A DNA stretch of 64,000 bases from Gluconobacter kanchanaburiensis NBRC 103587. Lineage in GTDB: Bacteria; Pseudomonadota; Alphaproteobacteria; Acetobacterales; Acetobacteraceae. The notes beneath the pieces were generated by a model. It was given only the letters and a program-made list of their open reading frames with translations, had not been told where the DNA came from and searched no databases. Numbering within the stretch: the stretch's first letter is position 1; every line of letters starts with the position of its first letter. The stretch spans positions 310,001 through 374,000 of the forward strand of contig NZ_BJVA01000001.1 in assembly GCF_007988905.1 (NCBI RefSeq), in the 5' to 3' direction. Below are positions 1,049-16,283 of this stretch, one piece after another. A program made the position numbers and the translations under genes.

Positions 1049-2023
1049 TTATTCCCGGGTCGGGGGGCGGTCCAGTAGAAGATGGCGCGCTTCCTCGATT
1101 GAAACGCCTTCGTTGAGAAGGCGGGTGACGGTTTCGATGATCGGCACCCGTACGTTGTGTCTGCGGGCGAGGGCGAGCATGGCGGGCGCGGTCAGAACGC
1201 CTTCCGCGACCGTCGTGCGTGAGGCGAGAATATCCGCGAGTGATCGACCTTCACCGAGTTCCAGTCCGACACTGTAATTACGGGAGCCGCGACTCGTACA
1301 GGTCAGAATAAGGTCTCCCATGCCCGCGAGGCCGGCAAGCGTGCTGGCGCGACCTCCAGTGGCTTCGGCGAGGCGGCCGATTTCGGCGACTGCCCGGGTG
1401 ATAAGGGCTGCGCGGGCATTTTCGCCCAGTCCCGCACCGATCGTAATACCCGCGCCGATGGCGATGACGTTCTTGGCGGCACCCGCAAGCTGGACACCGG
1501 CAGCATCATCGCTGGCATAGAGACGGAAGCTGGATGTGTTGAGAAGCGCCGTGAGAGCCTGTGCAAGCGCAATGTCCGCGCAGGCCAGCGTTGCTGCAGC
1601 GGGGAGGCCCTTGGCGATTTCTATAGCGAAATTCGGACCAGAGAGGACGCCCGTCGGGCGGTTTGGCATGGTCTGCGCTAGCACATCGAGTGGCAGGAGG
1701 GATGTGGCCTGTTCTAGCCCCTTGCAACAGGTCACGACCGGAACCGTGGGATCAAGAACGGTCTGAAGGCGCGTTGAGACGTCGCGGGCGGTCTGCACCG
1801 GGGTCACGAGCAAAACGACATCGGCTGTACGCGGAAAATCGCCCGTGATGGTGATGGTGTCGGGCAGGATGACGTCCGGCAGGCGCGGCAGGGTTCGGGT
1901 TGCCGGCGGAACGGGGTTTCGCATCCAGAGGGTGACGTCCGCGCCGGTGGCCGCCATGGCGCAGGCCAGTGCGGTTCCCCAGGCTCCGGCGCCGATAACG
2001 GTGATATGCGGACGTCTGCTCAT
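1049..2023 (-). CDS. gpsA: Glycerol-3-phosphate dehydrogenase [NAD(P)+]
   Basis: Makes sn-glycerol-3-phosphate from dihydroxyacetone phosphate for phospholipid synthesis in the cytoplasm. The 324 residues are the usual family length. The N-terminal Rossmann motif VIGAGAWGTALA binds NAD(P)H; SGPNFAIEIAKGLP and AGAAKNVIAIGAG carry the catalytic lysines; LAGMGDLILTCTSRGSRN is the classic GpsA signature in the C-terminal helical domain. It is the last gene of a minus-strand run tsaD - ubiquitin-like - DUF4132 - rlmJ - gpsA, with only two bases between the rlmJ stop and this ATG, so cotranscription is likely. Confidence 0.96.
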   Translation of the reverse strand: MSRRPHITVIGAGAWGTALACAMAATGADVTLWMRNPVPPATRTLPRLPDVILPDTITITGDFPRTADVVLLVTPVQTARDVSTRLQTVLDPTVPVVTCCKGLEQATSLLPLDVLAQTMPNRPTGVLSGPNFAIEIAKGLPAAATLACADIALAQALTALLNTSSFRLYASDDAAGVQLAGAAKNVIAIGAGITIGAGLGENARAALITRAVAEIGRLAEATGGRASTLAGLAGMGDLILTCTSRGSRNYSVGLELGEGRSLADILASRTTVAEGVLTAPAMLALARRHNVRVPIIETVTRLLNEGVSIEEARHLLLDRPPTRE

Positions 2024-2025
2024 GA

Positions 2026-2865
2026 TTATTCCTCTGCCAGCCGTTCGATATTGATCTGGATGTCTTCGGCATCGGGGGAACGCAGGCCGGTGGCGAGGGC
2101 TTCAAGAATGTTGCGGGCCTCATCCTCAAAGCCAAACGGTGCGTTGACGACCAGCAAGCCACAGCCATTCAGGCGGGACGGATCCACAGGCGGGCGGAGC
2201 AGGAACTCGCAGGCGAGCATGTCCCGGATGCCCGCGTCCTGAAGGGCCGTGTAGAAGGTGCGGACGGGTGTGCGATGCTTGATCGGGTACCAGACGGCGA
2301 TGATCCCGGCGCGAAAACGATTGCGGATCAGGGCGATGGCCTCGGCGCAGCGGGCGAAATCGTCCGGTTTTTCAAACGGCGGATCAATGAGAATGAGGCC
2401 GCGTTTAAAATCCTTAGGCGGCAGGAGTGCGCGCAGGGCCTCGTAACCGTCACGATGATGCACGGCCGCCTGCGGATCTGCGTGGAAGAGGCGGCGGAGG
2501 GGCCTGACGTCTTCCGGGTGCAGTTCGCAGGCGATGAGCTGGTCTTGCGGGCGCAGTTCGGTGCGGGCGAAGGCCGGGGAGCCGGGGTAGCGGTGCCGAT
2601 CCTGCACGTTGGGGCGGACGGCGTTGAGATAATCCGCAAGGGCCGGGGCTGCCGGACCGTCAAGCAGGCGGCCGATGCCTGCGCGCCATTCCCCGGTCTT
2701 CTCGGCTTCTTCTGACGTGAGGTCGTAGCGGCCGCATCCGGCATGGGTATCGAGGACGACGAAGCCTGCGGGTTTGCGCTTCAGGGCCTTGATCAGTGCG
2801 AGAAGCAGGGCGTGCTTCATGCAGTCGGCGAAGTTTCCGGCGTGGTAGATGTGGCGGTAGTTCAA
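2026..2865 (-). CDS. rlmJ: 23S rRNA (adenine-2030 N6)-methyltransferase RlmJ
   Basis: SAM-dependent methylation of A2030 in 23S rRNA. The N-terminus NYRHIYHAGNFADCMKH is the diagnostic opening of the family; DTHAGCGRYDL is the SAM-binding glycine motif and LILIDPPFEKPDD is the N6-adenine catalytic motif IV (DPPF/Y). Length (279) is typical. The start is TTG at 2865: it gives the conserved N-terminus and overlaps the DUF4132 stop as TTGA, which indicates translational coupling. The neighbouring tsaD also modifies RNA, but gpsA downstream does not, so the run is not a pure RNA-modification operon. Confidence 0.95.
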   Translation of the reverse strand: MNYRHIYHAGNFADCMKHALLLALIKALKRKPAGFVVLDTHAGCGRYDLTSEEAEKTGEWRAGIGRLLDGPAAPALADYLNAVRPNVQDRHRYPGSPAFARTELRPQDQLIACELHPEDVRPLRRLFHADPQAAVHHRDGYEALRALLPPKDFKRGLILIDPPFEKPDDFARCAEAIALIRNRFRAGIIAVWYPIKHRTPVRTFYTALQDAGIRDMLACEFLLRPPVDPSRLNGCGLLVVNAPFGFEDEARNILEALATGLRSPDAEDIQINIERLAEE

Positions 2866-5540
2866 GAGACGTTTTCCGGGGGGGAGGCGGGGAACTGCCT
2901 GAGGATGACGGGATCGTTGATTTTGTCATCGGCAGCGAGAAGGAAGATTTTCGACAGGATGACCGAGAGGGTCTGGTCGTCGTCGAAGGGCAGGGCGATG
3001 CTGAATTTCTTTTTGCGGGAGTCGGGTACGATGCAGATATAGCGCCGGTCGGGATCGAGGAAGATGTTTCCCGTTCCAATATGGATCCGGTAGCTGTGCA
3101 GGACGCCGCGGACATGGGCATGCGTGTCGGTAAGTTCGAGGCGGTCCGCGATGGTGAGACGGGGGAGGATCCGTTCAAGCGTCTCATAACGGATGCGGGC
3201 GCGGCCGTTGAGGGAGGTGGTTTCGTCCTGCTTCCACATGGCGAGATCACTCAGGCGGCGCCATTCGCCGATGGAACGGCCTTCCGCGCCGTCGAGATAG
3301 GTGACTTCAAGGCCGATTGAGGCCACGCTCACGAAGAGGTCCAGATCGCGCATGACTTCCGAAAAAATCAGCGGTGGGACGTCTTCGAGCGCGACCGTGT
3401 CCTTGCCGATGGTGAGCTTTTTGCCGCCGTCCTGACGCCACGAGCCCTTGTCCGTGACGGTGCGGAACTGGACCCGATCTGTGAGGATATGGGTGAATGT
3501 TCCATGATGGAAAGCGGCCTGTCCATCGACGCCGGCGGTCCAGATTTCAGCATGCAGACCGGCGGCGGGAATGGTCAGGCTGGTGGGTTCGCCCTCGCTT
3601 GAGGGCATGTGCATGCTCAGGGTGCGCACGCGCCAGCCGCGCTGGCGGCCGAGTTCGACGGACTGTGCCTGACGCAGGACCTGCCTTGCGTAGCGAAGGG
3701 AGGCCGGAGACGTGGCGCGCTCGGCGTCCGTCAGGACATAGGTTTCGCGCCAGGCCTGACGGATGGGCTGGACGAGGGCGATGGCTTCCAGTGTGTCGCG
3801 CCACTGGTTGACGAAGGCCATATCAACGTCCAGCGGATGCCAGAGTGTAAGGGTTTCGTCGTCGCGCAGGGGAGTTGTCGGGGTGCCGTCCGGGGCGATG
3901 GGTGTGCCGTTTGGGAAGAGGACGGTGCGCTGTGTGCCGTCGGGCGCAGTGAGGGTCCAGATCTGGCGGTGGGCGAGCCAGGACAGGACGGGATGGGCCA
4001 GATAGTTTGTGCGGAAACGTTCGGCGGTCCAGCGCTCCTGAGTGAGCCAGGAGCGTTCGAGACGCAGGCGGTGGGCCTGCATTTCCTTTGTCAGGTCGCG
4101 GGCTTCTTCCCTGAGTTTTTCATAGGCACGGATGGTTTTGAGTTCGGCTCGGATTGCGGGAGGGACCGGGCGCAGTTCGGTGCCATCGGCGGAGAACAGT
4201 GTGATCGTGCCGGAGGCGTTGGTTTTGAGGGACAGGGTCGCGGTCAGGCCGTTGGGAAGCGGAACGGTCCGTTCATGATGGCTGTCGAGGTCGTGGGTAT
4301 AGGCGGAGCGTTCTTCGAGCTCCGTGATGCTGGTGCCGGATTTTCGGGCGGAGTCGGCCAGGGCGGCGTTGATCTGGCCGAGCATCAGGGAATGACGGGT
4401 TTTCTGGCGCAGGGCGATCTGTTCGTTGATGGCGTCACGGTCTGCGGTGAGGCCGAGGGCACGGATAATGCGGTTGAACTCAAAGAGTTTTTCGTTCTTC
4501 TGGAATTTTTTCGCCAGTGTGCTGAGGAGTTGTACGTCTTCCGGCTCGCCACTGACGGCGACGAGCCAGAGGCAGCCACACAGGATTTTATTGAGGTTGA
4601 GCAGTTCCGCGAGAGGGCGTTTTCCCAGATTTTGCAGTCCCAGTGCCGCAGTGTCCATTCGCCAGAGGGTTTCCTGTTCCGGTATGAAAGCGTCTGGCTC
4701 GGCGGTGAGTTCGTAAGCTGCTTCCCGAACAGAGCCAGTAGCCTTGATGCGGTTGTTTGCATGCAGGACGAGGATGGGAAGAATGGCGGCGCGATAGAGC
4801 GGACCATCGATCCAGCGACCGTCCGCCATATTGAAATCGCGTAGAATGGTACGGGCCAGGATCAGAACGTCCTGTCCGTCGGGGGCAGCGAGAATGGCGG
4901 CTCGGTCGCGCAGGGTTCTGACGGAGGGCGTAACGTTATCCGGGGTGGAGAGGCGATCAAAGACGGGATCGTCCACATTGCTCGGATATAGGGTCAAGCG
5001 AATGATGTGCTGGCGGATGAGGCGGAAGGCGCCAGGGCGTTCAACAGGGATCCGGATATAGTCTGCCCGGGCCTGGGCAAGCCATTTCAGATCTATGATG
5101 CGATGGGATTCGGAATTCACGGACGGGGCTGGACCCGAGCCGAATATTTCGAAGCGGGTCCAGTAGGAATGGCGTTTCGCCAGTGGAATGGGGGCTTTGG
5201 GATCAAGGCTCTCGCGAGAGAGACGCTCCAGCCATTTCGGAGACGTAGGCCGTGGCGCTGTGCCCATCGTCTCGGGCAGGAAATAGGCGGCGAGAGGAAT
5301 GGTATCGCTGCGGTATTGGTAGGCATGCTCCTTAAAGGCGTAGCCTTTGTAGGCGCATCTCTGCTGTTCGTAGAGTTCGACCCATTTTTTTCTGGCGTCT
5401 TCAAAAACCGTAGGGCAGCGGGAGCGCATCAGGGTGCGCCACTCGATGAAGGCCCGCTCCATGTCGCCCACTTTTGACAGGAGGCGATAGAGCGGGCCGC
5501 CGGGCAGGGAGGCGACCAGAACCGGATCACGCTGCTGCAT
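2862..5540 (-). CDS. DUF4132-domain protein, large, function unknown
   Basis: An 892-residue soluble protein with no signal peptide or membrane segment. Residues about 412-610 match the DUF4132 (MolR/YehI-type) pattern as I know it: a charged segment with RLRLERSW, RWTAERFR, then HPVLSWLAHRQIW, and later the LWHPLD and VQPIRQAWRE motifs. The last ~100 residues (around YRIHIGTGNIFLDPDRRYI and the near-terminal ADDKINDPVIL) form a separate conserved-looking C-terminal module often found with DUF4132. The N-terminal 400 residues look alpha-helical and unassigned. No catalytic motif is recognised. It starts one base after the stop of the ubiquitin-like gene (TGA-T-ATG) and overlaps rlmJ by four bases, so it is translationally tied to both. 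No biochemical role is claimed. Confidence 0.85.
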   Translation of the reverse strand: MQQRDPVLVASLPGGPLYRLLSKVGDMERAFIEWRTLMRSRCPTVFEDARKKWVELYEQQRCAYKGYAFKEHAYQYRSDTIPLAAYFLPETMGTAPRPTSPKWLERLSRESLDPKAPIPLAKRHSYWTRFEIFGSGPAPSVNSESHRIIDLKWLAQARADYIRIPVERPGAFRLIRQHIIRLTLYPSNVDDPVFDRLSTPDNVTPSVRTLRDRAAILAAPDGQDVLILARTILRDFNMADGRWIDGPLYRAAILPILVLHANNRIKATGSVREAAYELTAEPDAFIPEQETLWRMDTAALGLQNLGKRPLAELLNLNKILCGCLWLVAVSGEPEDVQLLSTLAKKFQKNEKLFEFNRIIRALGLTADRDAINEQIALRQKTRHSLMLGQINAALADSARKSGTSITELEERSAYTHDLDSHHERTVPLPNGLTATLSLKTNASGTITLFSADGTELRPVPPAIRAELKTIRAYEKLREEARDLTKEMQAHRLRLERSWLTQERWTAERFRTNYLAHPVLSWLAHRQIWTLTAPDGTQRTVLFPNGTPIAPDGTPTTPLRDDETLTLWHPLDVDMAFVNQWRDTLEAIALVQPIRQAWRETYVLTDAERATSPASLRYARQVLRQAQSVELGRQRGWRVRTLSMHMPSSEGEPTSLTIPAAGLHAEIWTAGVDGQAAFHHGTFTHILTDRVQFRTVTDKGSWRQDGGKKLTIGKDTVALEDVPPLIFSEVMRDLDLFVSVASIGLEVTYLDGAEGRSIGEWRRLSDLAMWKQDETTSLNGRARIRYETLERILPRLTIADRLELTDTHAHVRGVLHSYRIHIGTGNIFLDPDRRYICIVPDSRKKKFSIALPFDDDQTLSVILSKIFLLAADDKINDPVILRQFPASPPENVS

Positions 5541-5541
5541 A

Positions 5542-5898
5542 TCAGCCTCCGACCAGCGGGATGAGGCGCATAAAGGTGATGGTCATATCCGGAATGAGGG
5601 TGATGCCGTCATCCAGATTTGGGATCTGATGGTCATTGATGATGACCAGATAGGCGCGGCGTTCAAAGCCCGTCAGGGCATGGTCGATGGCGGCTTCCAC
5701 GGTTTCGATACAGGGTGCGCCCTGCGGAACGAGGGCGGTTTTTTCGTCCTCTGTTTTGCTGCCGTTGTCCCATTCGAGACGAACGCGTTCGGCGATCAGG
5801 TCCCGCACGCGCAGTTGTCTGCGGGCTTTCCAGTCAAAGCGCAGGGCGGCTCTGCTGATGCCTGTCCCGGTCTCGTCGCGGATGAGGATGGCGGTCAT
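5542..5898 (-). CDS. Small beta-grasp (ubiquitin-like) protein ending in Gly-Gly
   Basis: A 118-residue protein I do not recognise by name. The visible pattern fits a beta-grasp fold: a strand pair at 2-23 (AILIRDET, AALRFDW), a helix at about 30-42 (LRVRDLIAERVRLEW), an acidic insert, a second helix at 66-79, then YLVIINDHQIPNLDDGI (83-99) and a final strand TITFMRLIPLVGG (106-118). That last half parallels MoaD/ThiS/Urm1-type carriers, in which a strand-loop-strand ends in an exposed Gly-Gly used for thiocarboxylation or conjugation. Here Gly-Gly are the last two codons before TGA. No E1-like, sulfurtransferase, E2-like or JAB peptidase gene is in the window. It is tightly coupled to the DUF4132 gene. 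The fold is an inference from sequence pattern alone. Confidence 0.7.
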   Translation of the reverse strand: MTAILIRDETGTGISRAALRFDWKARRQLRVRDLIAERVRLEWDNGSKTEDEKTALVPQGAPCIETVEAAIDHALTGFERRAYLVIINDHQIPNLDDGITLIPDMTITFMRLIPLVGG

Positions 5899-5910
5899 GT
5901 GGCTTCCTGT

Positions 5911-6996
5911 TCAGGCGTGAGCGGGTGTGCGTTCGGAAAGGGGCCAGCGGGGGCGGGCTGCGGTGTCGATTTCGTTGGGTGTTTCGCCCGCATGAAGGCG
6001 TTCGAGCGCGGCCCAGGCGACCATCACCGCATTGTCCGTGCACAGCCGCAGGGGCGGTGCGAAGAAAGGGATGCCGTGACTGGCAGCGACCTGTTCGAGC
6101 GCATGACGGAGAGTTTTGTTGGCCGCGACACCTCCCGCAACGACGAGGGCCGTAGCATTCGGGCTGAGGGCGAGGGCGTGTTCGGCGCGGTTGGCCATCA
6201 CATCGGCGACGGCGCGCTGGAAGGAAGCTGCGACATCTGCGGCGAACTGTCGCGGAAGGGCCTCCTGTGCTCCGGTCGGGTCCTGTGTGTCGATCAGGCG
6301 GCTGACAGCGGTTTTCAGGCCGGAGAACGAGAAATCACAGCCATCGCGGCCCTTGAGCGGACGGGGGAGCGCATAGGCGTCGTCCCGCCCTTCGGTCGCG
6401 AGTTTTTCCAGCGCGGGGCCGCCGGGCCATCCCAGGCCAAGCATCTTGGCGACCTTGTCGAAGGCCTCTCCGGCGGCGTCGTCGATCGTACCGCCAAGGC
6501 GGACATAACGGCCGGTTTCCTCGACTGAAACGCACTGGCAGTGGCCGCCCGAGACCAGCATCGTCAGGTAAGGGAAGTGTAGATCCGCGCCGAGGCTGGG
6601 GAGGCGGGGGGTGAGAATATGGGCCTCGATATGGTTCACGGCCACGAAGGGGCGGTGTAGCGCCATGGCCAGTCCTTTGGCGTAGGAACTGCCGACGATC
6701 AGACCACCGATCAGGCCGGGCCCCGTTGTCCCGGCAAAAATGTCGATGTCGGCGAGCGTCAGGGACGCTTTTTTCAGGACTTCCATCACCAACGCAGGCA
6801 GGGCGTCCAGATGGGCGCGGGCGGCGATTTCCGGGACGACGCCGCCGAGAATGGCATGGTCGGTCTGGGAGAGGACGCCTTCGGCCAGGATCGTGCCGTC
6901 GTAAGCGAGAATGGCGCAGGCCGTGTCGTCGCAGGAGGTCTCGATGGCCAGAAGCGGGCGCAGAGCCGGAATGGGACGTGCAGTGATGGGTGACAT
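5911..6996 (-). CDS. tsaD: tRNA N6-adenosine threonylcarbamoyltransferase TsaD
   Basis: Catalytic subunit of the t6A37 tRNA modification complex (with TsaB, TsaE, TsaC), cytoplasmic. ASKHA fold motifs are present: LAIETSCDDTACAIL at the N-terminus, the metal-binding HIEAH (HMEGH in many homologues), GTIDDAAGEAFDKVAK, SFSGLKTAV, and VAGGVAANK near the C-terminus. The frame is open upstream to 7260, but ATG 6996 (MSPITARP...) gives 361 residues, the normal size, and the conserved LLAIETSCD begins within the first 30 residues. A longer ATG at 7023 is possible. It is divergent from hemC and heads the run containing the ubiquitin-like and DUF4132 genes, 12 bases upstream of the former. Confidence 0.94.
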   Translation of the reverse strand: MSPITARPIPALRPLLAIETSCDDTACAILAYDGTILAEGVLSQTDHAILGGVVPEIAARAHLDALPALVMEVLKKASLTLADIDIFAGTTGPGLIGGLIVGSSYAKGLAMALHRPFVAVNHIEAHILTPRLPSLGADLHFPYLTMLVSGGHCQCVSVEETGRYVRLGGTIDDAAGEAFDKVAKMLGLGWPGGPALEKLATEGRDDAYALPRPLKGRDGCDFSFSGLKTAVSRLIDTQDPTGAQEALPRQFAADVAASFQRAVADVMANRAEHALALSPNATALVVAGGVAANKTLRHALEQVAASHGIPFFAPPLRLCTDNAVMVAWAALERLHAGETPNEIDTAARPRWPLSERTPAHA

Positions 6997-7063
6997 GGCC
7001 CATATTATGGCCGAGTCCGTCATATCATGACAGCCCCGTGTGAATGGGCTAAAGCTGCCGTTC

Positions 7064-8113
7064 ATGAATGCTCCCGTCCTGCCTTCCGACGCGCTCCAGA
7101 GAGTCGCGGCGGAAGCCGTCCGCCGTTCCCATGCCGCTGAGCCGCCTACCGGCCGCAAGCTCCCTCTGCGTGTCGGGTCGCGCGCGTCTCCGCTGGCGCT
7201 GGTCCAGACGCGGAACTTCCTGACCCGTCTGACGCGGTTCTGTCCGGTGCTGCGCGACATGGGCGCGTTTCAGGAATACCAGATCAGCACCGAGGGTGAC
7301 CGCAATCAGGCGCAGCGTCTGGCGGAGATCGGCGGCAAGGGACTTTTTGCCAAGGAAATTCATGAGGCGCTGGTGGACGGGCGGATCGATTTCGCGGTGC
7401 ACAGCCTCAAGGATCTGGAAACCAACCTGCCGCCGGGCATCGTGCTGGCCTGTACGCTCAAGCGCGAGGATGCGCGTGATGCGCTTATCCTGCGGGATCG
7501 GACCGTAACGGTCGATCCGGAACGTCCGTATGACTGTCTGCCTGAGGGTGCGCTGATCGGCTGTGCGTCCGTGCGGCGTCAGGCGCAGATGCTGCATGTG
7601 CGGCCCGATCTGCGGTTCGGACTGCTGCGGGGTAACGTGCAGACGCGACTGGACAAGTTGCGGGCCGGAGCATGCGATGCGACGCTTCTGGCGCTTGCGG
7701 GGTTGCGGCGCCTGGGCATGGAAGACCGTGTCGATGTCGTGCTCGAACCTGACCAGATGCTTCCTGCGTCCGGTCAGGGGATTGTGGGCGTGACGGTTCG
7801 TGAGAGCGATCTGGAACTGCGTGAGCTCCTGTCTGCGATTGAAGATCCGGAGGCACGTGCCGTTTCGACGGCCGAGCGTGCGCTTCTTGCCGAACTGGAC
7901 GGGTCGTGCCGCACGCCGATCGGCGGTTACGCCCGGATCGAGATGGGCGTGCTGAAACTGAGCGGCCTGATCGCCAGCGAAGACGGGACCTTCCTGCTGC
8001 GCCGGGAGATCGAGGGCGCACCGTTTGACGCGGCCCGGATGGGGACGGAACTTGCGGATGAACTCCGTCGCGATACGCCGTCCAATATCTTTGAAGACAT
8101 GAGGCGTCCCTGA
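7064..8113 (+). CDS. hemC: Hydroxymethylbilane synthase (porphobilinogen deaminase)
   Basis: Joins four porphobilinogens into hydroxymethylbilane in haem synthesis. LRVGSRASPLALVQT near the N-terminus, KGLFAKEIHEAL, DFAVHSLKDLET and the cofactor-loop LDGSCRTPIGGYA, whose Cys carries the dipyrromethane cofactor, are all intact. ATG 7064 (MNAPVLPS) gives 349 residues; the GTG at 7040 in the same frame would add eight residues without family support, and neither has a strong Shine-Dalgarno. The 67 bases to tsaD must hold both divergent promoters. hemD follows directly, as in many proteobacteria. Confidence 0.95.
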   Translation: MNAPVLPSDALQRVAAEAVRRSHAAEPPTGRKLPLRVGSRASPLALVQTRNFLTRLTRFCPVLRDMGAFQEYQISTEGDRNQAQRLAEIGGKGLFAKEIHEALVDGRIDFAVHSLKDLETNLPPGIVLACTLKREDARDALILRDRTVTVDPERPYDCLPEGALIGCASVRRQAQMLHVRPDLRFGLLRGNVQTRLDKLRAGACDATLLALAGLRRLGMEDRVDVVLEPDQMLPASGQGIVGVTVRESDLELRELLSAIEDPEARAVSTAERALLAELDGSCRTPIGGYARIEMGVLKLSGLIASEDGTFLLRREIEGAPFDAARMGTELADELRRDTPSNIFEDMRRP

Positions 8114-8148
8114 CGACTGACCGGTCTCGGGAGGGGCGCGTCGTTCTG

Positions 8149-8796
8149 GTGACGCGTCCGGAGCCCGGGCTGTCTGCTACTTTGGCGCAGGTTCGGGCAA
8201 AAGGATGGGACGCCATGGCGTGCCCCATGCTCGATATCACGACATTCGCACCGATTGTGCCCGCGCCTTTCCAGGCCGTGCTGGTGACGAGCGCCAATGC
8301 TCTGCCGGCTTTGCGGGACTGGCCGAAGGACCGGCTTATTGTTGCTGTGGGTGGCCAGACCGCTGCCCGAGCGCGCGAAGCGGGGTTTGCCAATATTCTG
8401 GCGGCGGCAGGGGATGCCCAGGCTTTGGCCGGGCTCTGTCGGAGACACGGCATAACCGGTCCGGATGTGCTTCTGGCGAGTGGCGTGGGCTACGGTGTGG
8501 AGCTGGCGCGGGAGCTCAACGTACAGCGGGTCGAGGTTTATGCCGCCTGCAAACGAACCGCACTGCCGGAAGATGTCCGGGCGGCTCTTCGGGACAATCG
8601 CGTCGATTCCGTGATGCTGTATTCCGGGAAAACGGCGGAAGCCTTCAGGGATGCTCTGGGTAGCGAGGAGGTCGCCGCACTGGGGCGCGTCAGGGCGCTC
8701 TGTTTGTCAGAGGCCATTGCCGCGCGCCTGAATTCCGGGGAATGGCGCGCGGTGACGTGGCCCGATCCGCTGGAGCAGATCGGGGCCGTAGTCTAA
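8149..8796 (+). CDS. hemD: Uroporphyrinogen-III synthase (HemD)
   Basis: Closes and flips hydroxymethylbilane to uroporphyrinogen III. HemD sequences are poorly conserved, but TRPEPG at the N-terminus, VLVTSANALPAL, and SVMLYSGKTAEAF in the second lobe are the expected landmarks, and the place directly after hemC supports the call. The first usable start codon is GTG 8149, which removes part of the first beta strand: the frame upstream reads GRVVLV right before TRPEPG and stays open to the TGA at 8092. The only earlier candidates are CTG codons at 8110 (overlapping the hemC stop) and 8146, so the true start may be the unusual CTG 8110. The protein is about 215-228 residues. Confidence 0.85.
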   Translation: MTRPEPGLSATLAQVRAKGWDAMACPMLDITTFAPIVPAPFQAVLVTSANALPALRDWPKDRLIVAVGGQTAARAREAGFANILAAAGDAQALAGLCRRHGITGPDVLLASGVGYGVELARELNVQRVEVYAACKRTALPEDVRAALRDNRVDSVMLYSGKTAEAFRDALGSEEVAALGRVRALCLSEAIAARLNSGEWRAVTWPDPLEQIGAVV

Positions 8797-8808
8797 TCAG
8801 GCTGTGGC

Positions 8809-9330
8809 TTATGCTTCGCCGGCGGGTTCCGGGAACTGCTGGGCGCGCTTGGCCTGCCACAGGGCAACGAAGTCGATCGGCTGGAGCACGACGGGGGGGA
8901 AGCCGCCATCCCGTGTGACATCGCTGACGATGGAGCGGACATACGGGAAGATCAGGCGCGGGACTTCAACCAGGAGGATCGGCTCAATGAGTTCCTGCGG
9001 CGGGTTGTTCAGCGTCACGACAGCAGCATAGGTCAGTTCGGCGATGAACACCGTCCGGCCAGCCTGTCCACCTTCCTGTGCCGGCGGTTCAGCGGCTTCC
9101 GCACGCACGGCCAGTGCGACTTCGTAAACGGCCTGCTCGTCTTCCAGGCGATTGGCCTGAACGTCGATATTGACGGAAATCTGCGGAGCGGAGCGCAGTG
9201 TGGTGAAGATCGAAGCGCCTGCCGGAACCTCGAAGGACAGGTCCTTCGTGTACTGCAGGTTGATGGCCAGCGGCATGGGCGGCACGTTTTCCTGGCCCAG
9301 GGCGGCGTTTTCGGTCGTGTTCTCGGACAT
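8809..9330 (-). CDS. secB: Protein-export chaperone SecB
   Basis: Cytoplasmic tetrameric chaperone that holds preproteins unfolded for SecA. The segment INLQYTKDLSFEVP near residue 25 and NIDVQANRLED, then FIAELTYAAVVTL and the C-terminal part with LFxP-like LIFPYVRSIVSDVTRDGGF are diagnostic of SecB. Starting at ATG 9330 (MSENTTENA) gives 173 residues and is preceded by GGAG at a good distance; the upstream frame extension to 9426 has no family support. It is divergent from timA, a common alphaproteobacterial arrangement. Confidence 0.95.
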   Translation of the reverse strand: MSENTTENAALGQENVPPMPLAINLQYTKDLSFEVPAGASIFTTLRSAPQISVNIDVQANRLEDEQAVYEVALAVRAEAAEPPAQEGGQAGRTVFIAELTYAAVVTLNNPPQELIEPILLVEVPRLIFPYVRSIVSDVTRDGGFPPVVLQPIDFVALWQAKRAQQFPEPAGEA

Positions 9331-9450
9331 ACGGTCTCCGGGTCCGCAGGGGCGAACCCCGAGGCGGACATCGATTTGGAACGATTGCGATCCTTCGGCG
9401 GTAGCATGATGTCCGCTGCGCGCCAAGACACGCTTCTACTGGACAGAAGG

Positions 9451-9479
9451 TTGAGATCGGGCGCATTGCACCCTATCTC
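9451..9479 (+). promoter_or_regulatory. Predicted promoter of timA-mltA
   Basis: TTGAGA (9451-9456) and TATCTC (9474-9479) are separated by 17 bases; the start of transcription would fall near 9486, about 40 bases before the timA ATG. The -10 part (CCTATCTCT) resembles the one before groES. It is a pattern match only. Confidence 0.45.
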
Positions 9480-9524
9480 TATGGTGAGAGATTTATCAGC
9501 ACACACTGCAAAACACAGGACGTC

Positions 9525-10322
9525 ATGTCTTCCAGCGACATCCATCTTCCCGCCGGCCTTATGGAACACGCGGGTCATCATTTTCCCTGGGACCTTGTGG
9601 TTCTTTTCGTGCTTGCCGCGGCACTTGGGGTGAGGCTCTATCGCGTGCTTGGCCGCCGTGTTGGAATGCAGGGGGTCCGTCAGGAGCGTCCGGAGGCCGG
9701 TCGTTTCGGCCTGAAGGCAAAGAAAGCCGCACCTTCCGATGCGTCCCGACCCCGCACGCCGCCTCCGCTTCCCGGACAGGCGACAGGAGAACGTGGCGAG
9801 GCGGCTTCAAATGCGCCCGCCATCCCCGAAGTTGAATATGATATTCCCGCTCCCGCAACGCGGGTAGGGCAGGCGCTGGGCGAAATAGGGGGGCTTTTCC
9901 CCGGATTTTCAGCAGCAGGCTTTCTGAAGGAGGCTGAAACGTCCTTCCGGCAGATTGTGCCCGCGTTTGCAGTCGGGGACCGGGTCGCGCTGGAAAAGCT
10001 GCTCACGCCGGCTTCCATGGACGCATTTTCTGCTGCGATTGATGCACGTTCCGAGGCTGGTGAAAGCCAGCGTAGCGATCTGCGGGGCATTGAAAGTCTG
10101 TCCATTCCCGATGCGATGCTCGTTTCGGTTGATGACGGAAGTAGAGGTGCGCGAATCGAGGTTCAGATCGTGTCGCGACAGGTGAATATCCTGACGGATC
10201 GCGCGGGAGAGCCTCTGCTGGGCACGGAGGCAGTGACCGAGTTCCATGACCTCTGGCTTTTCGAGCGGATGGCCGGACAGTCTGACACCCTATGGCGATT
10301 GGCGGCTTCACGCCCGGCCTGA
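9525..10322 (+). CDS. timA: Tim44/TimA-family inner-membrane protein
   Basis: 265 residues: a single membrane segment at about 22-38 (WDLVVLFVLAAALGVRLY), a basic motif after it (VGMQGVRQERPEAGRFG), a Pro/Ala-rich linker, and from about residue 120 a Tim44-like domain (FLKEAETSFRQIVPAFAVGD). This is the bacterial relative of mitochondrial Tim44; in alphaproteobacteria it is commonly placed beside secB and mltA and is thought to act in membrane or protein-transport functions, though its role is not settled. It precedes mltA with a 46-base gap, and the two probably form one transcript. Confidence 0.85.
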   Translation: MSSSDIHLPAGLMEHAGHHFPWDLVVLFVLAAALGVRLYRVLGRRVGMQGVRQERPEAGRFGLKAKKAAPSDASRPRTPPPLPGQATGERGEAASNAPAIPEVEYDIPAPATRVGQALGEIGGLFPGFSAAGFLKEAETSFRQIVPAFAVGDRVALEKLLTPASMDAFSAAIDARSEAGESQRSDLRGIESLSIPDAMLVSVDDGSRGARIEVQIVSRQVNILTDRAGEPLLGTEAVTEFHDLWLFERMAGQSDTLWRLAASRPA

Positions 10323-10368
10323 CAAGTCCCGTGTTCTATTGCTTACTCCCTGGATTTTCTGCCGCTCG

Positions 10369-11523
10369 ATGAAAAAAATTCTGACCCTGCTGACATTTGG
10401 GGTGCTTTGCGGCTGCACTCCTCAGAATACGTCCTCCACTCTGGCACTCACTCCGGTAGGTTATGAAAGCCTTGCAGGTTGGGGGCAGGAAGATTTCACG
10501 TCCCTGATGCCGCTTTTGCGCAGTGACTGTCGTCGTCTGTCGCAGCTGCCGCCGGAAACAGTGCTTGGGGGCAGCGAGAGCATTCCTTACGGACGGCATG
10601 TTTCGGACTGGAGCAACGCCTGTGCGGCTCTGGCCAGCGCAACGGATGGCCGGACTTATCTGGAGACGTGGTTTCAGCCCTATCAGGCGACGGATGACGC
10701 ATTTTATACTGGGTATTTCGAACCGCAGATTGCGGCGTCCCTGACGCGGGGGGGGGAGTATCAGGTTCCGGTTTACGGGCGTCCGCGTAATCTGGTCCGG
10801 GCGAAGGCGACCAATGGCCAGATGGTCAATGGACGATGGGTCAACGGACAGTTCGCGCCGTATTATGACCGTGCGGCCATTGATGGTGGAGCGCTGGACG
10901 GGCAGGGGCTGGAGATCGCCTGGTTGAAAAGTCCGGTCGATCTGTTTTTCCTTCAGATCCAGGGATCAGGGCGTCTGATTCTGCCGGATGGCGGGCAGGT
11001 ACGTGTCAGTTATGACGGGCGTAATGGTCAGGCCTATGTGCCGCTCGGGCGTGTTCTGGTGCAGGACGGCGAACTGCCTGCAGACGGGGTCAGTATGGAC
11101 AGTATCCGTAACTGGCTCGAAGCGCATCCGGACCGGATGATGTCCGTCATGGAGCGCAATCCGAATTATGTCTTTTTCCGTCGCGATGACGGCGATCTGG
11201 CTCAGGGGCCGAAAGGGGCATTCGGGATGCCGCTGACGGCCGGGCGTTCTGTGGCAGTCGATCGGTCCATGGTGCCGTTTGCGATGCCTCTCTGGGTTGA
11301 GACGAAGCTGCCTTATGGCGCGGCTCAGCCTGTGAGCTGGGATCATCTGGTGTTTGCGCAGGATATTGGGACGGACATCAAGGGGGCCGGGCGCGCCGAT
11401 CTGTTCACCGGCTGGGGCGCGACTGCGCAGTCCGTGGCGGGGAACCTTCATGCTCATGGGCGTATGATACTATTTCTGCCGCGGCAGCCTGCGGATTCGC
11501 CCCCGGGTTCTGGGGCGCAATGA
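10369..11523 (+). CDS. mltA: Membrane-bound lytic murein transglycosylase A
   Basis: Outer-membrane lipoprotein that cleaves peptidoglycan glycan strands to 1,6-anhydro ends. ATG 10369 gives a lipoprotein signal, MKKILTLLTFGVLCGC, with the lipobox ending at Cys 16; the frame runs further upstream but without a signal. YTGYFEPQIAAS and SPVDLFFLQIQGSGRL are MltA signatures, and the C-terminal 3D domain FAQDIGTDIKGAGRADLFTG carries the catalytic Asp of AQD and the Asp cluster. The length (384) fits the family. It overlaps the next gene by four bases (ATGA). Confidence 0.94.
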   Translation: MKKILTLLTFGVLCGCTPQNTSSTLALTPVGYESLAGWGQEDFTSLMPLLRSDCRRLSQLPPETVLGGSESIPYGRHVSDWSNACAALASATDGRTYLETWFQPYQATDDAFYTGYFEPQIAASLTRGGEYQVPVYGRPRNLVRAKATNGQMVNGRWVNGQFAPYYDRAAIDGGALDGQGLEIAWLKSPVDLFFLQIQGSGRLILPDGGQVRVSYDGRNGQAYVPLGRVLVQDGELPADGVSMDSIRNWLEAHPDRMMSVMERNPNYVFFRRDDGDLAQGPKGAFGMPLTAGRSVAVDRSMVPFAMPLWVETKLPYGAAQPVSWDHLVFAQDIGTDIKGAGRADLFTGWGATAQSVAGNLHAHGRMILFLPRQPADSPPGSGAQ

Positions 11524-12338
11524 TCCGCAGTCGCCGGGAGAAGCTCGGTGTCCATACGCTGATCCGGGGGGACTGTACGACGGTTCTCAAGCGTATGCCG
11601 GCGCAGAGCGTGGACGTGGTGGTGACGTCGCCGCCGTATAACCTGGGTGTGCCGTACCGGACGTATCAGGACAGGCTGCCGGAAGATGCATATCTGGACT
11701 GGCTGGAGGATGTCTGCACCAGTCTGTGCCGGGTGATGAAGGATGACGGCTCGTTCTTTTTGAACATCGCGGGATCGTCGTCCCAGCCTTGGCTGCCGTT
11801 CGAGCTGATGACGCGGCTGCGCAAGCTGTTCGTGCTTCAGAACCACATCACCTGGATCAAGTCGATTTCGGTGGGTGAGATTACTTACGGGCATTTCAAG
11901 CCGCTGAATTCGGCGCGCTTCGTCAATCGTAATCATGAGCATGTGTTCCATCTGACCAAGACGGGGAACGTGCCGGTGCAGCGGCTGGATGCGGGTGTGC
12001 CGTTTACGGACAAGAGCAATATCGTGCGCCGTCAGCACATTACGGATCGACGGTGCCGGGGTGATACGTGGTTTATCCCCTATGAGACCGTGCGTAGCCG
12101 CAAAGAGAAGTTCAGCCATCCGGGGACGTTTCCGGTGGCGCTTCCCGAAGCCTGCATTCGGTTGCATGGGCTGAGGCCGGGTGGGGTGCTGTTGGATCCG
12201 TTCATGGGATCGGGCACGACGCTGGTGGCGGCGGAACGGATGGGCTGTGTGGGGATCGGGATTGATACCGATACGTCTTATGTGAACGTGGCGCGCAAGC
12301 GGGTGCGCGCTGCGATCGATCATGAGGACGAGGATTAA
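11520..12338 (+). CDS. Solitary DNA methyltransferase, beta class (N4-C or N6-A)
   Basis: 272-residue SAM-dependent DNA methyltransferase. The catalytic motif IV TSPPYN is at residues 36-41 and precedes the SAM-binding motif I DPFMGSGTT at about 226-234, the beta-class order. The SPPY form is frequent in N4-cytosine enzymes but also occurs in N6-adenine ones, so the methylated base is open. It lacks the C-terminal extension of the cell-cycle enzyme CcrM and has DPPY replaced by SPPY, so I do not call it ccrM. No restriction endonuclease gene is near; its start overlaps the mltA stop (ATGA), so it appears embedded in a housekeeping operon rather than a restriction island. Confidence 0.9.
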   Translation: MIRSRREKLGVHTLIRGDCTTVLKRMPAQSVDVVVTSPPYNLGVPYRTYQDRLPEDAYLDWLEDVCTSLCRVMKDDGSFFLNIAGSSSQPWLPFELMTRLRKLFVLQNHITWIKSISVGEITYGHFKPLNSARFVNRNHEHVFHLTKTGNVPVQRLDAGVPFTDKSNIVRRQHITDRRCRGDTWFIPYETVRSRKEKFSHPGTFPVALPEACIRLHGLRPGGVLLDPFMGSGTTLVAAERMGCVGIGIDTDTSYVNVARKRVRAAIDHEDED

Positions 12339-12431
12339 TCGACAGCACCTGTTTTTCTGACAGGTTCAATCACTTTGACTTGCAATGCCATTTTTCCACA
12401 TTGTCACGACACCGTGAGTATGAGGAGAAAA

Positions 12432-13895
12432 ATGGTGCGTTCCAGCACGATTATAAAGGGAATTGCCGGTCTGGTGGCGCTGGGCGTTGTCGCCTGGGGC
12501 GGGACTGTCACTTATCTTGAGCATTTCGATCATGCTGGAGCACCGCAGCTTCCTGCCAGCAGCCCGACGCGACAGGACCCGACGGCCATGGCGGCGTTCA
12601 CGGCTCTGCGCGAAGTGCGCTGCGATTACTGCCATACGCAGAATGCGAACCTGCCGTTCTATTTCAGCCTGCCGCTGGCCAATCAGATCATGAAGCGCGA
12701 TCTGGTGCAGGGTCAGCGCCATTTCGAATATGCGCCGGTGCTGGCTGCGTTGCAGCAGGGCAAGCCGCCTTCTGTTGAGCAGCTTTCGCGCATCGAGGAA
12801 GTCATCACTCAGAACCGTATGCCGCCTGCGGCTTATCTGCTGATGCATCCGCACGCCCATCTGAACGAAAAGCAGCGCGTGGACATCCTGAACTGGGTGC
12901 GTGAACAGCGCGAGCGTTATTATGCGACGCCGGGTGTGGCGGCGCAGTTTCGTGGCGAGCCGATCCAGCCAATTCCTGAGAGCGTGGGCGTGGACTGGAA
13001 GAAGGCCGAGCTAGGCCGGGCGCTATTCTTCGACAAGGGGCTGTCGGGTGACGGGACGCTCAATTGTGCAAGCTGTCATGGTCTGGACAAGGGCGGCGTG
13101 GACAACCTGACGACTGCGACGGGTATTGGGGGCCAGAAGGGGCCGATCAATGTGCCCAGCGTCTATAATTCCGTGTTCAGCATGTCCCAGTTCTGGAATG
13201 GTCGTGCGAAGGATCTGGCGGAGCAGGCGGCAGGACCAGTCATGAATCCGCTCGAAATGGGTTCGCATGACTGGGCGACGGTGGCCGAGCATGTTCGGAG
13301 CACACCGGGTTATGCCGGTCAGTTCGAAGCGGCATTTGGCTCAGATCAGATCGATAAGGACACGATCACGGGTGCGATCGCGGAATATGAAAAAACGCTG
13401 ATCACGCCGGACAGCCGTTTCGATCTGTATTTGAAGGGCGATGCGAAGGCGATTACGGCGCAGGAAAAGCGCGGCTATGAGCGTTTCAAGGAAATCGGCT
13501 GCTCAGGCTGCCATAGCGGTATTGCTGTGGGCGGTGACGCTTACGAGATTCTTGGGTTGGAAGGCCCGTATTTCGAAAACCGTCACACGAAGCTGACGGC
13601 TGCCGACGAAGGGCGCCTGTCTGTGACCCATGCGGAAGGCGATCGGGCGCGGTTCAAGGTCCCGAACCTGCGCAATGTCGAACTGACCGGCCCGTGGCTG
13701 CATGATGGTTCGGCCACCACACTGGAGCAGGTCGTGCGGGAGATGGCACGTTACGAGACCCCGGATCGGGACATCGCCGATCAGGATGTCGCGGATATCG
13801 TGGCGTTCCTCAGAACGCTGACGGGAAAATACGAAGGCATTCCGTTGAAGGATGTGCCTGCTGACCAGCCGCTACAGGCTCCGGCTTCCAACTGA
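12432..13895 (+). CDS. Tri-haem cytochrome c peroxidase-like protein
   Basis: 487 residues, anchored by an N-terminal membrane segment (about 8-25) and facing the periplasm. There are three CXXCH haem c sites: CDYCH (64-68) in an N-terminal haem-binding domain, CASCH (212-216) and CSGCH (357-361) in the two domains of a MauG/CcpA-type peroxidase. GPINVPSVYNSVFSMSQFWNG and the C-terminal FKVPNLRNVELTGPWLHDGS are strong di-haem peroxidase signatures. The added haem domain recalls E. coli YhjA, which takes electrons from quinol. The ATG at 12432 is chosen because GAGGAG lies directly before it. Likely role: peroxide reduction or quinol-peroxidase activity; MauG-like maturation is less likely. 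A strong terminator follows. Confidence 0.88.
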   Translation: MVRSSTIIKGIAGLVALGVVAWGGTVTYLEHFDHAGAPQLPASSPTRQDPTAMAAFTALREVRCDYCHTQNANLPFYFSLPLANQIMKRDLVQGQRHFEYAPVLAALQQGKPPSVEQLSRIEEVITQNRMPPAAYLLMHPHAHLNEKQRVDILNWVREQRERYYATPGVAAQFRGEPIQPIPESVGVDWKKAELGRALFFDKGLSGDGTLNCASCHGLDKGGVDNLTTATGIGGQKGPINVPSVYNSVFSMSQFWNGRAKDLAEQAAGPVMNPLEMGSHDWATVAEHVRSTPGYAGQFEAAFGSDQIDKDTITGAIAEYEKTLITPDSRFDLYLKGDAKAITAQEKRGYERFKEIGCSGCHSGIAVGGDAYEILGLEGPYFENRHTKLTAADEGRLSVTHAEGDRARFKVPNLRNVELTGPWLHDGSATTLEQVVREMARYETPDRDIADQDVADIVAFLRTLTGKYEGIPLKDVPADQPLQAPASN

Positions 13896-13901
13896 TAAGA
13901 G

Positions 13902-13932
13902 ACGGCCCCGAAATTTTCGGGGCCGTTTTTTT
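13902..13932. terminator. Bidirectional terminator between the peroxidase and hydrolase genes
   Basis: The stem ACGGCCCCGAA / TTCGGGGCCGT (11 bp, short AT loop) is followed by a T run on the plus strand. It sits between convergent genes and can serve both, though the A/T flank is better for the plus-strand gene. Confidence 0.85.
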
Positions 13933-13947
13933 AAGGGATGACCGCGA

Positions 13948-15156
13948 TTACTGCGGAATGGGCGTGCACTGGGGAGAGACCGGTTTGCCCGACATCACGG
14001 CCGTGGTGAAAGTTGCGGAGTCCGGCAGGGAGGCATTGACCGTCTGGCTGTGGTCAAGCCCTTTGTAGAGATGGGCCTGGACAGTGGAACCCGCCGCACA
14101 GGCAGCTTTCACCAGCCCGAGTTGCAGAGGTGGTGGTACGTCCCGGTCTTCCGTGCCCGTTCCGGTAAAAAGAGGCTGGGCCAGCTTCAGGGTCGGGAAG
14201 GTCATGGCTTGCAGCGCGGGGCTCATGGCCTTCAGGAAGGTCGGCTGAAGACTGTTCTGCAACGTCAGGCCTGCATCTTTTGTTTGCCGTGAAAGTGTCG
14301 TCAGACATTCGTGGGCAGCGTTGCGATACACAGCAAGCGCTTTTGACGTGAATGCCTGTTCGGGGCGAAAGCGGGAGTCATGTCCCTCCAGGCCGGCGGC
14401 AAGATAGAAAACATAGTCGATAAGCGGACTGTAGCCCGCATCAGGACGTGCGGCCGCTTTCAGAAGACCGCCTAGCAGTTCAGGTGTCACATAAGGTGCG
14501 CCGGTGGCGACCGTGCCACGAATGTCCAGTTCAGGAGCATAGGTGGGAGCGTAAGCCGCTGTGGCGACCGCAGCCCCTCCACCCTGGGACTGACCGACGA
14601 TCATGATTTTGTTCTGAAGATCGGGGACGCTGCTCAGTGCTGCGCGGAGACTGTCCAGCACGCTGTAGGCTTCTACGCGGGTGTCCAGATAGGCATGGGT
14701 TCCGGGGGTGCCGAGGCCCTGATAATCCGTTGCGACAATGGCGAACCCCCTTTTCATCCAGGTCGAGAGGTAGGCGCTGTTGCGGTCACTGTAAGGGTTG
14801 AGTGAGGGGGCACAGCTATCGTCGACGCCAACTGTGCCATGAGCCCAGGCAACGATTGGCCAGCCGCCTTCGGGAGGCGGTCCTGGGGGAAGTATGATTT
14901 CTGCCGTTACGGGAACCAGCCCTTTACCAGTAATGCCATTTGTCGACAGGTAGGTTATCCGCAGGGAACGTCCCGCATCTGGAAGGCCGAGAGGATCAGC
15001 AAGGGGAGCCGAGGCGACGAGGGCGCCGGGTTTGTGCGCCGTGGTTTTCTGAATGCTGGCAGGAGCCGCTGCCAGCACCGGATCTGTGAGCGCAGCCGCG
15101 CAGAGAGCTGTGCCTGCAAGCAGGAAAGAGAACATTCGCGGATAATGCAGAGGCAT
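13948..15156 (-). CDS. Exported alpha/beta hydrolase, secretory-lipase-like
   Basis: 402 residues with an N-terminal signal peptide (hydrophobic core at about 9-28, cleavage after VLAA). The mature part is an alpha/beta hydrolase: PIVAWAHGTVGVDDSC (oxyanion-hole region), nucleophile elbow GQSQGGG (catalytic Ser), a late Asp in GTEDRDVPP and His in LDHSQTV complete a plausible triad. The layout resembles the secretory lipase (LIP) family; the real substrate, ester or otherwise, is unknown. Two internal Cys pairs could form disulfides, consistent with export. Its upstream region carries a perfect 16-bp inverted repeat that ends 12 bases before the start codon. Convergent with the peroxidase gene. 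Confidence 0.82.
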   Translation of the reverse strand: MPLHYPRMFSFLLAGTALCAAALTDPVLAAAPASIQKTTAHKPGALVASAPLADPLGLPDAGRSLRITYLSTNGITGKGLVPVTAEIILPPGPPPEGGWPIVAWAHGTVGVDDSCAPSLNPYSDRNSAYLSTWMKRGFAIVATDYQGLGTPGTHAYLDTRVEAYSVLDSLRAALSSVPDLQNKIMIVGQSQGGGAAVATAAYAPTYAPELDIRGTVATGAPYVTPELLGGLLKAAARPDAGYSPLIDYVFYLAAGLEGHDSRFRPEQAFTSKALAVYRNAAHECLTTLSRQTKDAGLTLQNSLQPTFLKAMSPALQAMTFPTLKLAQPLFTGTGTEDRDVPPPLQLGLVKAACAAGSTVQAHLYKGLDHSQTVNASLPDSATFTTAVMSGKPVSPQCTPIPQ

Positions 15157-15168
15157 AGGAAATCCTTT

Positions 15169-15246
15169 GTCAGTCTCGTCTGAACCGGGCGCGCAGCCGA
15201 AATATGCAGCCGGGGCAGGCTTGCGTCAGCTTCAGACGAGACTGAC
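15169..15246. repeat. Perfect 16-bp inverted repeat upstream of the hydrolase gene
   Basis: GTCAGTCTCGTCTGAA at 15169-15184 is exactly repeated in inverse orientation at 15231-15246, with 46 bases between. On the minus strand the element lies just before the Shine-Dalgarno (AAAGGA) and ATG (15156) of the hydrolase gene. It could be a pair of operator half-sites, a long leader hairpin, or the ends of a tiny mobile element. No flanking target duplication is visible. Confidence 0.8.
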
Positions 15247-15329
15247 GCCCTGATCGTTAACGTCAAGTGAATTTCCTGGGTTGAATTCTCCGGACCCAGA
15301 CTGAGCTGATGATTTATGAAAGATCGCAG

Positions 15330-15539
15330 TCAGTCGTCCTGTGCAAGCCGGCGGTCGGCCGCCTTGTAGATTTGGTCGCGCTCGTCGGTTGAAAGAAGTC
15401 CCCGTTCATATTCCTGTGTCGCGCGGGCCTTGGCGTTACTGGCGCGGGCCCGCGTATCGACCGGGTAGGCACGCTTCTCGGGAAGGCCAAAGGCACTATC
15501 AGGCAGGCTGTCGCGTTCTTCCTGGGTGAGGTGGCTCAT
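15330..15539 (-). CDS. Small hydrophilic protein, DUF6582-like
   Basis: 69 residues, very charged, no signal or membrane segment. The pattern LTQEERDSLPDSAFGLPEKR followed by YPVD and A-x-NAKARATQ is a familiar arrangement in small conserved hypothetical proteins (DUF6582 as I recall the name). Function unknown. It stands alone on the minus strand, about 80 bases downstream of the inverted repeat in genome coordinates, and is divergent from the Smr gene. Confidence 0.7.
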   Translation of the reverse strand: MSHLTQEERDSLPDSAFGLPEKRAYPVDTRARASNAKARATQEYERGLLSTDERDQIYKAADRRLAQDD

Positions 15540-15704
15540 GATCCTGTTCCGTAAGCGGTTGAAGGCCGGACGATAAACCTATCAGCGTCGGAAAAGACCT
15601 GAAATCCCGAAAGAATATTGTTCAATCATGCTGGAAGCCGTTACATGCTCAGGACCCCGGGAGGGCTGTCGGACAAGATAGGCCGGACAGGAAGCGAGGA
15701 TGGT

Positions 15705-16280
15705 GTGGCGAAACGGGATCTGAGAGAAGACGAGGAGACGCTGTGGCGGATGGTTGTCCGCGACATCAGACCGTTACGGTCTCCCCGGTCCCCGTATAGG
15801 TTCCCGCGTTTTGTCGCGTCTGTAGAAAAATCCGTACCGTCACTGCCAGCCCGTGATGGGGTGCACTCCGGAGCCGTAATGTCACGGATCTCGCCTGCCA
15901 GTGCGCCTTCCGCCAGACCTGTCGTGCGTCCTTCAGAACTGTCCGTAGGAGTTCGGGCACCGGGGCTGGACGATACGAGCTGGAAGCGGTTGTCCCGCGG
16001 ACAGATGAAAGTGGATGCGAGACTGGATCTGCATGGATATGTCGTTCAGGAAGCGTTCGAGCGGCTGCATGACTTCATGCAGAGGGCTCGAACGAGGAAC
16101 TGGCGCTGTGTAGAAGTTGTGACAGGGCTCGGCAGTGGTCAGACGAGTGGTCAGATCCGCCGTGAACTCCCTCTGTGGCTCCAGCGTGGGGATTTGCGAT
16201 CCATGGTACTGGCCGTCGTTCATCCTCATGCGGCCAATCATGGGTCAGTCCGGATTCTGTTGAAGACCCGCCGTCGCTGA
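15705..16280 (+). CDS. Smr-domain protein (putative DNA/RNA endonuclease)
   Basis: About 191 residues. The C-terminal Smr domain (from about residue 105) shows LDLHGYVVQEAFERLHDFM, VVTGLGSG and a final VHPHAANHGSVRILLK, the standard LDxHG - TGxG - PxxxGG order of MutS2/Smr nickases, although the last motif reads HAANHG. The frame is open upstream to 15618, but GTG 15705 gives the N-terminus AKRDLREDEETLWRMVVRDI that alphaproteobacterial homologues begin with, and GAGGA lies before it. In relatives this gene often follows mltA; here three genes intervene. Converges on the next gene with a three-base gap. Confidence 0.82.
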   Translation: MAKRDLREDEETLWRMVVRDIRPLRSPRSPYRFPRFVASVEKSVPSLPARDGVHSGAVMSRISPASAPSARPVVRPSELSVGVRAPGLDDTSWKRLSRGQMKVDARLDLHGYVVQEAFERLHDFMQRARTRNWRCVEVVTGLGSGQTSGQIRRELPLWLQRGDLRSMVLAVVHPHAANHGSVRILLKTRRR

Positions 16281-16283
16281 CGT

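Follow-up and report, generated by a model that had tools for sequence, protein, structure and literature searches.

The question raised by this locus is whether a small, Gly-Gly-ending ubiquitin-like (UBL) protein and the DUF4132 protein encoded directly behind it belong to one system. Both genes lie in a 64,000-nucleotide stretch of Gluconobacter kanchanaburiensis NBRC 103587 (C1:310001-374000 of its genome; hereafter the window), on the minus strand in the order tsaD, UBL, DUF4132, rlmJ, gpsA. Open reading frame (ORF) and Pfam analysis reproduced exactly what an earlier note had read from the letters alone: a 118-residue product ending in LVGG at the position given in Table 1, and an 892-residue DUF4132 protein whose start codon lies 1 nt past the UBL stop. 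The pair is probably a real, undescribed two-part stress module, because the pairing recurs across distant bacteria and, in the radiation-resistant Deinococcus, DNA damage induces the pair. Within Gluconobacter, purifying selection acts on both genes (dN/dS 0.05-0.31 for the UBL gene in 6 pairs and 0.12-0.24 for the DUF4132 gene in 10 pairs). The window UBL matched 0 Pfam families at E up to 10, and the large protein matched only DUF4132 and DUF7737 at the same threshold, with no N-terminal WGR domain. No family in Pfam, NCBIfam or PADLOC was assigned to the UBL or to the relatives scanned; weak matches were judged to be chance, as was that of one UBL (L030) to PADLOC SduA, a sole weak match at E 0.0059.

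We collected a family of 20 distinct loci. Besides the window, 13 were found by UBL search alone, four of them in close Gluconobacter kin, and six through their DUF4132 genes, these six being adjacent by mode of discovery. The results showed that DUF4132 lies directly downstream of the UBL gene in 19 of the 20 loci, and in 12 of the 13 that the UBL query itself had retrieved, with a spacing of -4 to +54 nt (18 loci measured). The arrangement occurs in Pseudomonadota, Actinomycetota, Deinococcota and Bacteroidota, and the gene pair noticed in the window is thus conserved. In the exception, G630, the neighbour of the UBL gene is a response-regulator gene, and the genome encodes two DUF5724-DUF4132-DUF7737 proteins on other contigs.

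By UBL search alone, the gene was found in 5/26 genomes of the genus, 4/200 of the window's family, 4/295 of the order of G228 and 1/248 of the family of G420 (G420 itself). The phylum gave matches in 4/398 genomes, one of which, G580, was dropped as chance (25.2 bits, a 298-aa ORF at 19.5 bits, no DUF4132). A search of a plasmid collection with the UBL yielded Nonomuraea gerenzanensis, and the named relatives in one search were only four Gluconobacter records. Upstream of DUF4132 genes, UBL genes were found in Novosphingobium humi, four Deinococcus species and Bacteroides finegoldii; with the D. ficus UBL as query, these four Deinococcus records and that of Bacteroides came up again. Genomes G202, G211, G214 and G215 were not added, their UBL scores and ends being the same as those of L011-L014. 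Also kept outside the 20 was a Fusobacterium fragment (H38), which matched at E 0.6, has in-frame stops upstream of it and comes from a record absent from the DUF4132 hits.

Among the 200 genomes of the window's family, the UBL occurs in 4 and a DUF4132 match in 6 (5 over the cut-off), with all 4 shared (hypergeometric 2.3e-7, kinship ignored). The two proteins also diverge together (Mantel r 0.93, 13 pairs, 0/5000 permutations as high). From this distribution the pair reads as old and patchy. It is possibly mobile, because a tyrosine integrase adjoins it in L022 (6676-8010), suggesting a genomic island, and because ORFs upstream of it in L034 look like transposases. A phage origin was set aside, the D. 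radiodurans UBL and the window DUF4132 protein having no phage match (the window UBL was not among the queries), and so was a viral-contig origin, since four pattern scans, with the DUF4132 alignment, the UBL alignment and two DUF4132 proteins, confirmed no relatives.

The C-terminal tail of the UBL, a protein of 117-148 aa, is conserved, mostly as PLxGG. Sixteen of the 20 tails end in Gly-Gly, two in SG (L021 and L022) and two in GRLW (L037 of Bacteroides and L070 of G630), so that a terminal Gly is present in 18. The Gly-Gly end on which the carrier idea was built therefore stood in the window and in most homologues and fell in four, and its absence from homologues had been named beforehand as refuting that idea. 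Among ORFs of 80-200 aa, Gly-Gly ends 3/184 in the window (UBL included) and 25/919 in 31 loci (homologues included). At the end of one ORF it is weak evidence alone; it is raised above chance because it is conserved among homologues. We rejected the idea that Gly-Gly simply results from a ribosome-binding site, since it is kept in five loci (L026, L031, L035, L071 and L072) where it is coded GGC GGC or GGC GGA, with no GGAGG. Other lineages keep it without a ribosome-binding role, so that it is the protein on which selection acts. Separately, the variant tails form a GRLW/GRMW branch, encoded in L037 (1209-1628), in L070 (9932-10372) and, as GRMW, in a broken Fusobacterium copy (L042, about 6990-7170).

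The presence of DUF7737 correlates with that of the UBL. This domain was found in 12/12 UBL-linked partners scanned (101.8-132.2 bits; the seven others are near kin), as well as in both G630 DUF4132 proteins (115 bits). The sister pair of the window DUF4132 protein, from G206 and an Acetobacter plasmid (clade support 100/99), has no UBL next door, and the search of the G206 genome found no UBL. In these two proteins DUF7737 scores 69.4 and 73.8 bits, about 45-50 bits less than in the window protein, and DUF4132 scores 106.6 and 109.4 bits against 109.0 in the window. The C-terminal alignment, which left out yehI and Burkholderia, has 18 conserved positions, of which 12 are unchanged in the two proteins and 5 differ in both; L850, F852 and K864 are among these 5 and are invariant in the 17 other rows. 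A Burkholderia protein with no UBL next door and no DUF7737 match is placed beside the UBL-linked Nonomuraea protein in the tree (which left out L024). DUF7737 was likewise not detected in four other scanned DUF4132 proteins (yehI, L024, L089 and L090). The simplest reading of the two loss events is that DUF7737 may be the UBL binding site. The DUF4132 proteins that are unlinked to the UBL gene in UBL-bearing genomes (G630 and Nonomuraea) keep the conserved C-terminus.

The UBL is probably a MoaD-like beta-grasp protein, as judged from structure prediction. AlphaFold2 on five close UBL sequences gave a model with pLDDT 55.6 and pTM 0.56 (the other four models, 37-39), in which strands and helices follow, at low confidence, a MoaD-like order. 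With this model, ranks 1-6 of a Foldseek search against the PDB were all MoaD or molybdopterin (MPT) synthase chains, with a best E of 0.25 and none significant alone, and rank 24 was a ThiS chain. The beta-grasp carrier proposed from the sequence thus gained a MoaD-type top six, from a low-confidence model. A profile search of solved structures gave two matches, which were set aside as chance-level. The D. radiodurans orthologue has been modelled separately, and the available text of that report also lists MPT synthase and SAMP1 structures (Zhou et al. 2022, PMC9650054).

The D. radiodurans pair consists of DR_A0165 (SEP068184) and the DUF4132 gene DRA0166. The available parts of PMC8533742 place the drA0165-drA0166 operon in the DdrO/IrrE DNA-damage regulon: an RDR motif is listed upstream of DRA0165, the operon goes up on DdrO depletion, and tagged DRA0166 rises after mitomycin C in the wild type and not in an irrE mutant. 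PMC9650054, in the text available, states that there is no RDR motif before DR_A0165. We found the printed 20-base RDR site exactly in L038 (4729-4748), starting 82 nt before the DR_A0165 start codon. An RDR-like motif is present upstream in 4/4 Deinococcus loci, three having the same 15-base core with 1 mismatch to the printed consensus and one having 2 mismatches. No RDR motif was found upstream of the window UBL gene, and the consensus patterns used for SOS-type LexA boxes matched nowhere in the 300 nt ahead of any of 14 UBL genes. As for phenotype, PMC9650054 reports, in the same partial text, that cells lacking DR_A0165 survive H2O2 better and have higher catalase activity, that a plasmid-complemented (overexpressing) strain survives less than the wild type, and that DR_A0165 binds Trx1 (DR_A0164) in pull-down; it also describes DR_A0165 as found only in Deinococcus. 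That description is contradicted by the relatives in other phyla.

MoaD inserts its tail into MoaE. By analogy, the UBL and the DUF4132 protein would form a complex in which the UBL is the small subunit and its C-terminal tail docks in the C-terminal DUF7737 of the partner; in Deinococcus the pair is made on DNA damage. We regard this two-protein module as evenly balanced between true and false. The DUF4132 protein had been proposed as the partner of the carrier; gene neighbourhood and domain correlation favour this, and its partner status is putative.

Several results weigh against the module. The Mantel correlation also fits mere co-inheritance of both genes. The argument from DUF7737 draws on two events; Burkholderia forms a long branch that the tree does not place securely, and the absence of the UBL in Acetobacter and Burkholderia covers the next-door locus, as the chromosomes were not searched. 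The UBL label needs 3 changes on the tree, and 118/500 shuffles were as low, so that it is not significantly clustered. A second Nonomuraea DUF4132 protein has, by eye, a DUF7737-like end and no UBL next door, in a genome that holds a UBL elsewhere. The UBL model is weak, and a model of the DUF4132 protein was useless (pLDDT 34.8, too poor to search). A profile-profile comparison of the UBL with 19 MoaD/ThiS fragments, taken from E. coli, D. radiodurans and the genomes studied here, gave no significant match (hhalign probability 0.5% against MoaD, 0.5% against ThiS and 2.7% against all 19), and 18/100 column-shuffled MoaD controls scored as high. Finally, the available text of PMC9650054 does not name DR_A0166 among the co-immunoprecipitation partners of DR_A0165.

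The absence of an E1 from the window, as first noticed, holds for the ThiF type, PF00899 matching in this genome (G000) only on contigs C10 and C20. Nor did tblastn with MoeB and ThiF of G000 as queries reveal an E1-type gene next to the pair in 19 loci (E up to 1e-3; a distant E1 may escape). The MoeB- and ThiF-type genes of G000 are the only E1-type candidates found, and activation of the UBL tail by one of them is possible. A strong PF00899 gene, MoeB-type by look in G000, is present in 26/26 Gluconobacter genomes. The second, ThiF-type gene (G000:C20:4697-5371) is patchy, occurring in 14/26: 5/5 with the UBL versus 9/21 without (Fisher 0.042, kinship ignored). As a dedicated E1 it was rejected: it correlates weakly with the UBL but lies in a thiamine operon (a context read in the G000 copy only). 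We consider it unlikely that the UBL is a sulfur or adenylate carrier whose tail, in the Gly-Gly-ending lineages, is adenylated by housekeeping MoeB or ThiF and converted to a thiocarboxylate, with the DUF4132 protein receiving the sulfur or passing it on. The distribution of these two genes, the conserved Gly-Gly with its freedom from ribosome-binding-like codons and the predicted MoaD-like fold would fit such a carrier. However, the tblastn search gave the pair no E1-type neighbour, some tails end in SG or GRLW, and no sulfur-requiring product is known. PF02597 carriers separate from the UBL were found in 9/10 UBL-bearing genomes tested, but G630 has none, and 1/8 such genomes tested for PF00899 lacks it (G145, 66% complete).

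Ubiquitin-like conjugation of the UBL to lysines through its terminal Gly, with the DUF4132 protein as ligase or receptor and the GRLW tails as trimmed precursors, is very improbable. It would account for the free terminal Gly in 18 of the 20 tails and for the like three-residue extension after Gly in Bacteroides (GRLW), G630 (GRLW) and the broken Fusobacterium copy (GRMW). However, the lack of an E1-type neighbour counts here too (E2 and JAB were not searched for), and no adduct is reported in the literature passages covered. In PMC9650054, co-immunoprecipitations of DR_A0165 with C- and N-terminal tags share 157 proteins, so those contacts do not depend on a free tail. PMC9650054 proposes, as far as its available text goes, a negative-regulator role for SEP068184, and the UBL might then be a free-standing regulator that curbs oxidative-stress resistance through thioredoxin and the like, with DUF4132 a mere operon neighbour. 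The H2O2 phenotypes, the catalase rise and the Trx1 pull-down speak for it, but DUF4132 is next door in 19/20 loci and an annotated thioredoxin neighbour was seen only in D. radiodurans and in 0/3 other Deinococcus loci (PLSDB gene tables are incomplete); we give this reading little credence. Equally a long shot is an E1-free bacterial UBL system, induced by DNA damage in Deinococcus, in which the DUF4132/DUF7737 protein would activate, accept or transfer the UBL glycine and, as part of the same reading, the GR(L/M)W tail of Bacteroides, one other Pseudomonadota genome and the broken Fusobacterium copy would be trimmed or would replace the glycine chemistry.

Compared with known systems, the window pair is closest to its Deinococcus homologue, where a UBL ending in TALAGG directly precedes a DUF4132-DUF7737 protein. 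However, DRA0166 has an extra DUF5724 region (DUF5724-DUF4132-DUF7737), and DR_A0165 is under RDR-motif control whereas the window UBL follows tsaD. MoaD and ThiS (PF02597) resemble the UBL in predicted fold, in the terminal Gly-Gly and in pairing a small protein with a larger one. The UBL is longer, at 117-148 aa versus 58-83 aa (19 fragments, some cut at the start), has a tail that is not strictly Gly-Gly, gives no significant profile match and has no MoaE or ThiG neighbour recognised; PF02597 matches other genes of G000 and not the UBL. MolR/YehI proteins (WGR-DUF4132) share the DUF4132 domain but, in yehI, L024, L089 and L090, not DUF7737, and yehI lies near MoxR AAA and VWA genes with no UBL annotated next door. 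Bacterial UBL conjugation systems with E1, E2 and JAB likewise encode a small Gly-ending beta-grasp protein in an operon (PMC7159879 and PMC10097602, partial texts); the pair yielded no E1-type neighbour in the tblastn search, which did not extend to E2 and JAB.

The coordinates of the pair and its neighbours are given in Table 1. The position of the pair between tsaD and rlmJ had been taken as a hint of RNA modification. We searched window tsaD, rlmJ and gpsA by tblastn over 19 loci (L013 left out); besides the window, three Gluconobacter loci (L011, L012 and L014) were the only ones with matches close to the pair. The setting is thus found only in Gluconobacter, and the hint is therefore not supported.

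Table 1. Features of the UBL-DUF4132 locus, in window positions
Feature	Position	Strand	Evidence
UBL ORF, 118-aa probable MoaD-like (beta-grasp) protein, end LIPLVGG	5542..5898	-	ORF, 20-locus family, low-confidence model, Foldseek
892-aa DUF4132/DUF7737 protein, putative UBL partner	2862..5540	-	PF13569 and PF24879
DUF4132 domain, residues 454-636	3633..4181	-	PF13569, 109 bits (cut-off 27)
DUF7737 domain, residues 782-882, putative UBL docking site	2895..3197	-	PF24879, 119.4 bits
Codons GGA GGC for terminal Gly-Gly, GGAGG ribosome-binding-like site of next gene	5545..5550	-	sequence
tsaD ORF, 12 nt upstream of UBL	5911..7260	-	PF00814; context seen only in Gluconobacter
rlmJ ORF, overlaps DUF4132 gene end	2026..2865	-	PF04378; context seen only in Gluconobacter

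In open-access full texts on DUF4132, DUF5724, DUF7737, SEP068184 and DRA0165/DRA0166, we recognised no description of the pair as a system, and work on RNA-repair systems in biological conflicts may mention it. The available parts of two beta-grasp surveys (PMC1779556 and PMC1949818) do not name DRA0165 or MolR. A stress peptide published as Deinococcus-only is now joined to a four-phylum family with a conserved partner, and DUF7737 gains a testable candidate role in UBL docking. A chemically active tail would make this a new MoaD-like or ubiquitin-like bacterial route tied to DNA damage; with an inactive tail, it would be a clear example of a carrier-like fold retained as a subunit whose tail varies.

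Two further observations concern the neighbourhood of the pair in other genomes. In two related genomes, a gene for a 384-aa protein overlaps the end of the DUF4132 gene (L071 5388-6542 and L072 5685-6839), and a Pfam scan of the L071 copy (E up to 0.001) assigned it to no family. In one genome only, the pair lies inside an RNA-repair-like cluster (L030, G228:C32:18001-38000, positions 1061-17280) that includes Band_7, RtcB, RNA 3'-phosphate cyclase, HD, a second RtcB, KptA/Tpt1 and a proteasome-like subunit.

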